64,000 bases of DNA from Verrucomicrobiota bacterium (GTDB lineage: Bacteria > Verrucomicrobiota > Verrucomicrobiia > Chthoniobacterales > Terrimicrobiaceae), in NCBI GenBank assembly GCA_018970255.1, contig JAGWWS010000011.1:1-64000 (forward strand). Reading direction: 5' to 3'. How positions within the stretch are numbered: position 1 is the first letter of the stretch; each line of letters starts with the position of its first letter. The notes under the pieces were generated by a model that did not search any database, was not told the DNA's origin, and was given only the letters and a program-made list of their open reading frames with translations. The position numbers and the translations under genes were made by a program. Of this stretch, positions 14,562 to 18,173 are shown one piece after another.

Positions 14562-15410
14562 TCAGTCCCGGAAAACGATCGCGCGGTTTCCATGGACGAG
14601 GACCCTGTCCTCGACATGGAACCGCACCCCCCGGGCGAGCGCGAGCCGCTCGCAATCCCTCCCGAGCCGCACCAGGTCCTCGGGGTCGTGGTAGTGCTCC
14701 ACGCGGGCGACCTCCTGCTCGATGATCGGTCCTTCGTCCAGTTCGGGCGTGGCGTAGTGGCAGGTGGCGCCGATCAATTTCACGCCGCGCTCGAAGGCCC
14801 GCCGGTAGGGGTTCGCACCGACAAAAGCCGGCAGGAAGGAATGGTGGATATTGATCACCCGGCCGGCATAGGCGGCGCAGAGGGAATCGGGCAGGATTTG
14901 CATGAAGCGCGCGAGCACGACGAGTTCGGCGCCGAGTTCCGAAAGGCGGGCTTCGAGTTGCCCGAACGCAGCCGGCTTGTCCGAGAAATCGATTTCTTCA
15001 AACGGGAGCCCCTCGCGCTCGGCGAGCGGGCGGCAGCTTTCGTGGTTGGAAATCACGGCGGGGATTTCGATGTTCAATTCCCCCGAGCGCCAGCGCCAGA
15101 GCAGGTCGGCGAGGCAATGGTCCTCGCGGCTGACGAGCACCGCCGTCCTCACCGGCCGGTCGGCCGGGCGCAATTGCCACTCGGCCTGCAGGGGTCCCGC
15201 AAGGCGCTGGAACCCTTCGCGGAATTTCCCGGGGTCCGCCTCCGCCAACCCGCCGGTGAACGCCAGCCGCGTGAAGAACCAACGCGCCACCGGGTCCGTG
15301 TATTGGCCCACATCGAGGAGGTTGCCGCCCGATTCCGCGATGAACCCGGTGATGCGGGCGAGCAGGCCCACCGCATCGGGGCAATTGAGTTTGAGGATGT
15401 TTGCAGTCAT
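14562..15410 (-). CDS. purU: Formyltetrahydrofolate deformylase
   Basis: A 282-residue PurU. Residues 1-80 form the ACT domain (LNCPDAVGLLARITGFIAES). The C-terminal formyltransferase-like hydrolase has NIHHSFLPAF with catalytic Asn and His and ELDEGPII with the Asp. PurU hydrolyses 10-formyl-THF to THF and formate. ATG 15410 overlaps the stop of the upstream cytochrome-fused gene by 4 bases, so the two are probably co-expressed. That pairing hints at one-carbon/purine turnover. Confidence 0.92.
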   Translation of the reverse strand: MTANILKLNCPDAVGLLARITGFIAESGGNLLDVGQYTDPVARWFFTRLAFTGGLAEADPGKFREGFQRLAGPLQAEWQLRPADRPVRTAVLVSREDHCLADLLWRWRSGELNIEIPAVISNHESCRPLAEREGLPFEEIDFSDKPAAFGQLEARLSELGAELVVLARFMQILPDSLCAAYAGRVINIHHSFLPAFVGANPYRRAFERGVKLIGATCHYATPELDEGPIIEQEVARVEHYHDPEDLVRLGRDCERLALARGVRFHVEDRVLVHGNRAIVFRD

Positions 15411-16675
15411 TGGAGCGATTTGATGTAGGCGACGAGTTCGTCCACCTGTTCGGGCTTGAGGTGCGCGAACGATGGCATGGCGGCGGGGTAGCCCTTCACG
15501 AGCTTCGCCTGCGGCTGGAGGATGGACTCGCGCAGATACGATTCGTTCGCCTGTGTGCGCGTCCCGTCGGCGAGGAGAACCGTGGTTCCGTAAAGCCCGT
15601 TCAACGACGGCCCGAGCTGCGAGGACCCCGCCTGGTGGCAGGTGGCGCAGGTTTGGGAAATGAAAAGTTTCGCGCCCGCCTTCGCGAGCGGGTCCACCGC
15701 CACGGCCGGTTCGCCGGTTTTCCCCTCCAACCGCACGGGCGCGGGCTCCGCATCCCCCGGCAGCACGAGCATCCAGCCAATCGCAATGCCCGCCAGCACC
15801 AGCGCGCCGAGCATCGAAACGAGCCAATTCGGGTTGTGGCCGCGGGTGTTCATCATGTGTTTCCCCCACATGAGGGTCGCCACGATCACTGCCAGAATCG
15901 GCACGCTCCACTCCGCGCTCGTCACCTGCGGGAAATGCGCGCTGAGCATCAAGAACAAGACCGGGAAGGTCATATAGTGGTTGTGGAGCGAGCGGGTCTT
16001 CGCGGCCTTGCCGTATTTCGGGTCGTGCGCGGCGCCCGATTCAAGCGACGCCATGAATTTTTTCTGGTTCCGGATGATGTGGAAAAAAACATTCGCCGAC
16101 ATGAACGATCCCATCATCGCGCCGATCTGGAGGTAGACCGCCCGGCCGTTGAAAAACTGGTCGAAAAACCACGCCGCCCCGATGAGCAGGGCGAACGAAA
16201 CGCCCAGCGCCGCCCGCGGGAAGTGCCCGAGCGGCGAACGCCACAGCGCGTCGTAGGCGCACCATCCGAAAACAATGCCCCCGATGCTCAGCGCAATCGC
16301 GCCGGAGCCGGGCAGCGCCGTTTTGGTGGCATCGAGCAGCGCCGTCCCGCCGTTGATGTAAAAAACCGCCACCAGCAGCACCACGCCGGAGATCCAGGTC
16401 GTGTAGGACTGCCACATGAACCAATGCAGCGGCACGGGAATCGCCTTCGGGTCCAGCACGCGCTTTTGGAGGTGGAAGACCCCGCCGCCATGGAGCATGT
16501 CGAGGTAGCCGAGCAGTTGATCGTCCTTCGGCGTGCCGTCCGCCTTCTTCGCCGGCGGCAGGAGGTTCAATTCCATCCAGGTAAAAAGGAGGGAATTCCC
16601 GATCCACATGATCGCGGCCACGACATGCACGAAACGCGCCGCCACCGCGAGCCAGCCTGCGATCTCAGCTTCCAT
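15407..16675 (-). CDS. PuuD-like membrane urate oxidase with C-terminal cytochrome c
   Basis: A 422-residue protein. The N-terminal 310 residues are a multi-helix membrane domain of the urate oxidase N (PuuD) type, starting GWLAVAARFVHVVAAIMWIG and with conserved His residues at helix ends. The C-terminal ~90 residues are a class I cytochrome c (TCATCH, and a Met ligand in AAMPSFAHL). PuuD hydroxylates urate and passes electrons to the respiratory chain. No other urate pathway gene is visible here. It is divergent from rpoN and overlaps purU. Confidence 0.82.
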   Translation of the reverse strand: MEAEIAGWLAVAARFVHVVAAIMWIGNSLLFTWMELNLLPPAKKADGTPKDDQLLGYLDMLHGGGVFHLQKRVLDPKAIPVPLHWFMWQSYTTWISGVVLLVAVFYINGGTALLDATKTALPGSGAIALSIGGIVFGWCAYDALWRSPLGHFPRAALGVSFALLIGAAWFFDQFFNGRAVYLQIGAMMGSFMSANVFFHIIRNQKKFMASLESGAAHDPKYGKAAKTRSLHNHYMTFPVLFLMLSAHFPQVTSAEWSVPILAVIVATLMWGKHMMNTRGHNPNWLVSMLGALVLAGIAIGWMLVLPGDAEPAPVRLEGKTGEPAVAVDPLAKAGAKLFISQTCATCHQAGSSQLGPSLNGLYGTTVLLADGTRTQANESYLRESILQPQAKLVKGYPAAMPSFAHLKPEQVDELVAYIKSLQ

Positions 16676-16756: not shown

Positions 16757-16772
16757 TGGCGCGGAAATTGCT
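16757..16772 (+). promoter_or_regulatory. Near-consensus sigma-54 promoter before rpoN
   Basis: TGGCGCGGAAATTGCT has the invariant GG (16758-16759) and GC (16770-16771) exactly ten bases apart and differs from the TGGCAC-N5-TTGCW consensus at one conserved position. Transcription would begin near 16783, shortly before the rpoN start at 16800. It points to autoregulation of rpoN. No activator site was identified. Confidence 0.55.
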
Positions 16773-16799
16773 TGCCGCAGCAGCATTCGTGCCCGCCTA

Positions 16800-18173
16800 A
16801 TGTCGCCAATGGCTGGAATGCAACAAGTGGCGAAGATGGCGCTGCAGCAATCGCTGTCGCCTCAAATGCAGCAAAGCCTGAACATTCTTCAGGCTCCGCT
16901 CACCGAACTCCGCCAGCTCGTCGATACCGAACTCCGCGCGAATCCCGCCCTCGAGGAGGTTGCACCGGAAAAGCCCGTGCTCAACGAGGAGGCGCCCGCA
17001 TCCAACCTCGAGGACCAGTGGAACGAATACTATTCCCAGCGCGCCACTGCGGAACCCTGGACACGTGAGGCGCTCGAGCGACGCCAGCATTTTCTCGATT
17101 CACAAGTCCGCCCCCCCACCCTCACCGAGCACCTCCTCGAGCAACTCCACACCGCCTCCTGGCCGCGCGAGGAGGCGACCATCGCCGCCGAAATCATCGG
17201 GAATCTGGACGATGGCGGTTACCTGCGAGCCAGCATCGAGGAGATCGCGGCGAACCTCGAAGTTCCCGCCACCGATGTCGAAACCATCTTGGGAAAAGTC
17301 CAGGAGTTCGATCCCGCCGGAGTCGCCGCACGCACGCTCTCCGAGTGCCTCCTGCTCCAACTCAAAGCCCAAGGCCGCCAGTATTCCACCGAGATGCGGA
17401 TCGTCCGCCATTACCTCGACGAGTTGGGCAGAAAAAAACTCTCCGAAATCGCAAAGGCCCTCGACCTCGAGATTCCCGAAATCCAGCGCGCGGCCGAAGT
17501 CATCGCCCACCTCGATCCCGCACCCGGGCGGACTTTTGCACCGGATAGCAATCAAATCGTCACACCCGAGGTGGTGGTGGAATACGACGGCGAGGATTAC
17601 ACGGTCAGCCTGAACAGCGACGAGGTCCCGCGCTTGCGAATCTCCGATTCCTACAAGGACATGCTCGCCGGGAATTCCAAGGAGGTGCGCGATTACCTGC
17701 GCGACAAGATTCGCACGGGGAATTTTTTCATCAAAAGCATCCAGCAGCGCCAGCAGACGATCATGAACATCGCTCGCGAAATCGTGGTGCGTCAGCGCGA
17801 ATTCATGGAGCGCGGGCCCACGCATCTCAAGCCGATGACCATGGGACAGGTCGCCGATGCGGTCGGTGTCCACGAAACCACCGTGAGCCGCGCCGCGGCC
17901 GGCAAGTTCATGCTCACGCCGCAGGGCATTTTCGAGATGAAGTATTTCTTCACGCACGGCTACACGAACAGCGATGGCGAGGGCGTGAGCAACGAAAGCG
18001 TGCGACAGGCGATCGCCCAAATCGTGAAGGAGGAGAACCCGAAAATTCCCCACAGCGATCAGGATATCGTCACCATGCTCTCCGGCCGCGGCATCAAGGT
18101 CGCCCGCCGCACTGTGGCGAAATACCGAGAGCAACTCGGCATCCTCCCCAGCCACTTGCGGAAGGGATTTTAG
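16800..18173 (+). CDS. rpoN: RNA polymerase sigma-54 factor
   Basis: A 457-residue RpoN. Region I is glutamine-rich (QQSLSPQMQQSLNILQAPL). Region II is acidic and short. The core-binding region spans about residues 105-300, a helix-turn-helix lies at VGVHETTVSRAAAGKF, and the RpoN box ARRTVAKYRE is near the end. ATG 16800 is followed by other ATGs at codons 4 and 7 that could serve. No bacterial enhancer-binding activator gene is in the window. It is convergent with cysN. Confidence 0.95.
   Translation: MSPMAGMQQVAKMALQQSLSPQMQQSLNILQAPLTELRQLVDTELRANPALEEVAPEKPVLNEEAPASNLEDQWNEYYSQRATAEPWTREALERRQHFLDSQVRPPTLTEHLLEQLHTASWPREEATIAAEIIGNLDDGGYLRASIEEIAANLEVPATDVETILGKVQEFDPAGVAARTLSECLLLQLKAQGRQYSTEMRIVRHYLDELGRKKLSEIAKALDLEIPEIQRAAEVIAHLDPAPGRTFAPDSNQIVTPEVVVEYDGEDYTVSLNSDEVPRLRISDSYKDMLAGNSKEVRDYLRDKIRTGNFFIKSIQQRQQTIMNIAREIVVRQREFMERGPTHLKPMTMGQVADAVGVHETTVSRAAAGKFMLTPQGIFEMKYFFTHGYTNSDGEGVSNESVRQAIAQIVKEENPKIPHSDQDIVTMLSGRGIKVARRTVAKYREQLGILPSHLRKGF

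Follow-up and report, generated by a model that had tools for sequence, protein, structure and literature searches.

A predicted sigma-54 promoter of rpoN, faced by a candidate mirrored site, in a freshwater member of the Verrucomicrobiota

The gene for sigma-54, rpoN, lies within a 64,000 nucleotide stretch of DNA (hereafter the window) from a freshwater Verrucomicrobiota bacterium with a genome of 2.56 Mb in 88 contigs. The encoded protein has all three RpoN Pfam domains (AID, core-binding and DNA-binding; Table 1), and its closest relatives, at 76-81% protein identity, are found in metagenome-assembled genomes of the Spartobacteria or Terrimicrobiaceae, within the Verrucomicrobiota. The gene is present as a single copy with its own promoter site directly before it. 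As judged from alignment, translation probably begins at the ATG at 16809 rather than at 16800, since an ATG is found at exactly this position in 14 of the 15 genus genomes, including that of the window, and one codon away in the fifteenth. Measured to this start, a gap of 133 bp separates rpoN from its divergently transcribed neighbour, and the gene occupying this upstream position varies among relatives. No sigma-70 promoter or terminator signals were found between 16600 and 16900, and the failure to find a sigma-70-type promoter there leaves basal rpoN expression unexplained.

Table 1. Positions of the genes and predicted regulatory features around rpoN in the window.
Feature	Position	Strand	Basis
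Predicted -24/-12 sigma-54 promoter of rpoN, TGGCGCGGAAATTGCT	16757..16772	+	11/12 strict consensus; conserved
Extension TGC following the -12 element (TGCT-TGC)	16773..16775	+	Column conservation
Expected transcription start	16783..16783	+	12 nt after the -12 C
Minus-strand -24/-12-like site, GGGCACGAATGCTGCT	16779..16794	-	Opposed to the promoter; centre of dyad ~16775.5
rpoN, sigma-54	16809..18173	+	Pfam PF00309, PF04963, PF04552; start aligned in relatives
Divergent neighbour of rpoN, urate-oxidase-N-type membrane protein with C-terminal cytochrome c	15407..16675	-	PF06181, PF00034

The letters of the window place the forward site exactly where a sequence-only reading had found it, with GG (16758-16759) and GC (16770-16771) ten bases apart, and bear out the single mismatch which that reading had reported to the -24/-12 consensus, TGGCACGNNNNTTGCW, 11 of the 12 strict positions being matched. 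The distance of about 28 bases that it had given between the site and rpoN has to be revised to 36 nt, because the start is probably that at 16809. The site agrees with the TGGCAC/TTGCW consensus and the GG-N10-GC arrangement by which membership of the sigma-54 promoters was judged. When this arrangement is required, it is the only site in the window to match 11 of the 12 strict positions, with seven others matching 10, and in a scan using a matrix built from 42 sites upstream of rpoN, all from other families, it scores 26.2 and ranks first of approximately 128,000 window positions, the runner-up scoring 15.0. Sites with two or fewer mismatches are nevertheless not commoner in the window than in shuffled sequence (12 observed versus 10.4 expected), and the pattern TGGCRYGNNNNNTGCTT is matched six times across the genome, against five for a backwards control. 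As the genome-wide count equals that of its control, the sequence match is weak evidence by itself, and pattern abundance was rejected as an argument for a promoter. The -12 element is followed by a TGC extension. Among the 17 sequences from families f1 and f66, its TG never varies and its C is retained in most; the extension is also largely preserved in 22 sequences from f65, f69, f5 and f67. Transcription from sigma-54 promoters begins 12 nt downstream of the C of the -12 element; polymerase would be expected to bind at the forward site and to start at about 16783.

Absence of the motif from close relatives had been named beforehand as the observation that would count against the promoter; it is present in every testable genome of the genus. 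Relatives were scored for sites within the last 100 nt before rpoN in which GG-N10-GC was obligatory and 10 or more of the 12 positions matched TGGCRYG-N4-TTGCW, a loosened consensus written after the relatives had been seen, with the start codon of each relative chosen automatically as that nearest to the aligned start. On this basis, such a site precedes rpoN in 15/15 genomes of the genus (0.19 expected from dinucleotide shuffles, as for all the following expectations), 5/6 of the rest of the family (0.10 expected), 33/59 of the rest of the order (0.64 expected) and, in samples of the remaining class and phylum made up of the 30 best loci by E-value and 40 stretches picked by family from 288 genomes, 11/22 (0.18 expected) and 3/47 (0.28 expected), respectively. 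One of the 16 genus genomes (G014) was dropped as the 5' end of its rpoN is missing; 75 of the 77 order genomes searched have rpoN, and the 66 outside the family were reduced to 59 by the two without the gene and by five whose upstream DNA was truncated, split or not retrieved (G271, G333, G342, G359 and G367). One phylum locus, L114, was dropped for want of a start.

The distribution follows family lines. The site is found in all members scored of f65 (9/9), f69 (7/7), f66 (3/3), f10 (6/6), f7 (3/3) and f8 (2/2), and in part of f5 (5/8) and f2 (6/9, or 9/9 at a looser cut of 9), and is missing from the 100 nt before rpoN throughout f64 (0/9), f9 (0/4) and other families. It is also present in all seven named Verrucomicrobia genomes L041-L047, for which RpoN identity is 46-50%. 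Its position is nearly constant: within the order, 48 of 53 sites are 33-39 nt ahead of the ATG. Within the 17 f1 and f66 sequences, mean column information is 1.62 bits for the site, versus 0.23 for the 30 nt upstream, a stretch in which no conserved enhancer block was found, although more distant or less regular enhancer sites would escape such a comparison. That the match arose by chance and rpoN has an ordinary promoter, as the control-level pattern counts would allow, is contradicted by this orthologous conservation across families and is most improbable.

The genome encodes both sigma-54 and the enhancer-binding activators on which promoters of this class depend, with three strong enhancer-binding proteins that each have a receiver-AAA-HTH_8 (REC-AAA-HTH_8) architecture, and a flagellin gene has a similar site, TGGCACGCTTGTTGCTT, 75 bp upstream; to judge from its gene content, the sigma-54 system appears complete. 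Conservation of the site at the same place, together with this complete-looking system, strongly supports a sigma-54 promoter for rpoN, and the forward site is very probably read by sigma-54 polymerase and opened by an NtrC-type enhancer-binding protein. Such a promoter is of a known kind, as autoregulation of rpoN in Verrucomicrobiia is already in print: rpoN has been reported to be enriched among the genes with sigma-54 promoters in this class, implying autoregulation, and sigma-54 promoters of rpoN have also been predicted in Planctomycetia, Bacilli, Clostridia and Proteobacteria, with Geobacter sulfurreducens and Dokdonia cited in the same context (PMC12316311, 2025). The class-level claim is the same as that made here; the portion of that paper covered gives neither aligned sites nor their spacing. 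Similarly, the prxS-rpoN2 operon of Rhizobium etli is activated by NifA, so that there too the transcription of an rpoN gene depends on sigma-54 and an activator, although rpoN2 is a second, symbiosis-specific copy within an operon, whereas the rpoN described here is single and has its own promoter (PMC3538637, in the part covered).

On the opposite strand, directly downstream, a second -24/-12-like sequence faces the forward site. It has GG-N10-GC, GGCA and TGCT, the features taken to mark a candidate sigma-54 binding site, and the two sites together form the dyad TGGC-N8-TGCTTG-N4-AGCA-N7-TGCC. In the 17 f1 and f66 sequences, AGCA (16779-16782) and TGCC (16790-16793) are invariant apart from one base in L145, while the bases between them vary in both families; the 16 columns of the minus-strand site average 1.36 bits, versus 0.15 in the 22 control sequences of f65, f69, f5 and f67. 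The dyad pattern, likewise written after the relatives had been seen, is matched in 23 of 197 order genomes (15/16 of the genus, 5/10 of the other f1 genomes and 3/4 of f66), once in each and always directly before rpoN, and its backwards control is never matched.

The reading of the minus-strand site that we tentatively favour, as somewhat less than evenly probable, is that it constitutes a second sigma-54 binding site, an addition to the forward promoter rather than an opposite of it. Seven determinants, GGC and TGCT, are arranged in exact two-fold symmetry about one centre with N10 preserved, the dyad is confined to rpoN, and in L147 (f3) and L244 (f62) two sites oppose each other in the same way, offset by one base. 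T at -26 is a consensus position of sigma-54 promoters that is not strictly required; the minus-strand sites of f1, f66 and f3 have another base there (A, G or C), and only that of L244 has the T, which counts both against this reading in the former families and for it in f62. Further against it, the site scores 9.6 in the window, far under the 26.2 of the forward site and ranking 13 of approximately 128,000 positions, and it is partly lost in three f1 sequences (L141, L142 and L145).

It is unlikely, if less so than the neighbour-based explanation considered below, that the AGCA-N7-TGCC block serves instead as the operator of another regulator, or as a leader RNA or translation element. The block is conserved at the level of DNA sequence, and RTGCC resembles a start codon followed by a proline codon. 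However, across 21 sequences the predicted fold of the leader RNA is no more stable than that of shuffled sequence (mean z -0.10), and in 21 relatives neither the frame nor the length of the putative upstream ORF is maintained. A conserved leader structure and an upstream ORF were both rejected in these relatives, and no hairpin was supported in the leader of the window itself (z +1.04). Another DNA-binding regulator may nevertheless act at the block.

That the minus-strand site is the promoter of a divergently transcribed neighbour seems rather improbable. The neighbour is divergent in the window, a divergent dehydrogenase-like gene, named by eye, is common to f66 and f3, and in f2 and f4 minus-strand sites elsewhere in the gap are followed, some 27-28 nt on, by a small divergent gene. 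Yet neither the identity nor the strand of the neighbour is conserved in f1, and the upstream gene is co-directional with rpoN in eight genomes having the minus-strand site (L014, L016, L017, L018, L021, L143, L144 and L146), four of these neighbours having been checked by Pfam. Retention of the site in these genomes argues that it is not simply the promoter of the neighbour, and weakens a divergent promoter as the general reason for its presence; it is also in keeping with a second sigma-54 binding site.

Were both sites bound by sigma-54 polymerase, a circuit with two opposing arms can be proposed. Sigma-54 polymerase requires an activator to initiate transcription; it would occupy the forward promoter until an activated NtrC-type protein opened the complex, yielding more sigma-54, such that switching on the activator would raise sigma-54 and amplify the whole sigma-54 regulon, probably including flagellin. 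It is possible, though on balance doubtful, that holoenzyme on the weaker, opposed minus-strand site would exclude the complex at the forward promoter and so cap the feedback: rising sigma-54 would limit its own synthesis, because holoenzymes on the two sites could not coexist. The predicted dose response is amplification at low sigma-54 and a ceiling at high sigma-54. The proposal from the sequence-only reading that sigma-54 drives its own gene in a positive feedback is strongly supported as regards the promoter, through its conservation and the sigma-54 system of the genome, while the positive sign is something we only infer, because the polymerase needs an activator and the minus-strand site could make the net feedback self-limiting. 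Tentatively, and with rather less than even confidence, the strong forward promoter and its weaker, opposed copy about one centre suggest that sigma-54 may both activate and block rpoN.

To our knowledge, little has been established about how sigma-54 levels are set outside the Proteobacteria. An order in which the distance between this promoter and rpoN hardly varies, but some families of which have lost the promoter, offers a natural comparison of autoregulated with non-autoregulated rpoN. If bound, the mirrored element would form a compact, self-limiting circuit; if the proposed circuit is real, it would amount to a homeostat encoded in DNA and run by a single protein, with rpoN as its sole location in every genome carrying the dyad.

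The mirrored element appears to be new within the literature covered. The main text of PMC12316311 does not use the terms orientation, opposite strand or divergent; the mirrored layout was not found in the parts covered of PMC2725144 and PMC3616915, nor is such a site described in the titles and abstract beginnings covered of the literature on rpoN autoregulation. Negative autoregulation of rpoN has been described in Rhizobium leguminosarum (PMC3538637), a case in which sigma-54 restrains its own synthesis much as the minus-strand site is suggested to allow here; the portion of that source covered gives no mechanism or site, and the brake suggested here is putative.

A number of further observations were made at these loci. 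In f64, rpoN of L150, L151, L153, L160 and L163 has no sigma-54 site, and by eye is preceded by an apparent sigma-70-type promoter, TTGCAG and TAxxxT separated by 17 nt; minus-strand matches in this family overlap that promoter and were left uncounted. In most of these five, a gene for a response-regulator-like activator lies before rpoN in the same direction. The minus-strand sites of f4 and f2, such as TGGAACGTTTTCTGCT (L157, L207, L214 and L222), precede a divergent gene whose small product looks secreted and ends in IYAGRAG, IYSSRG or similar; in some genomes a second gene of like kind follows. This divergent gene may be a sigma-54-driven partner of rpoN. In two members of the genus (L025 and L026), the gene divergent from rpoN looks by sequence to be a flagellin. 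Elsewhere in the genome of the window, on contig C60 (L110), TGGCACGGATGGTGCTT is found 114 bp upstream of a gene whose product looks secreted and has no Pfam match, a possible further sigma-54 target. Within the window itself, the ORF list suggests by eye that small genes on the minus strand between 11902 and 12875 resemble Phd/YefM-type antitoxins, alongside a PIN-domain toxin gene with an apparently broken frame.
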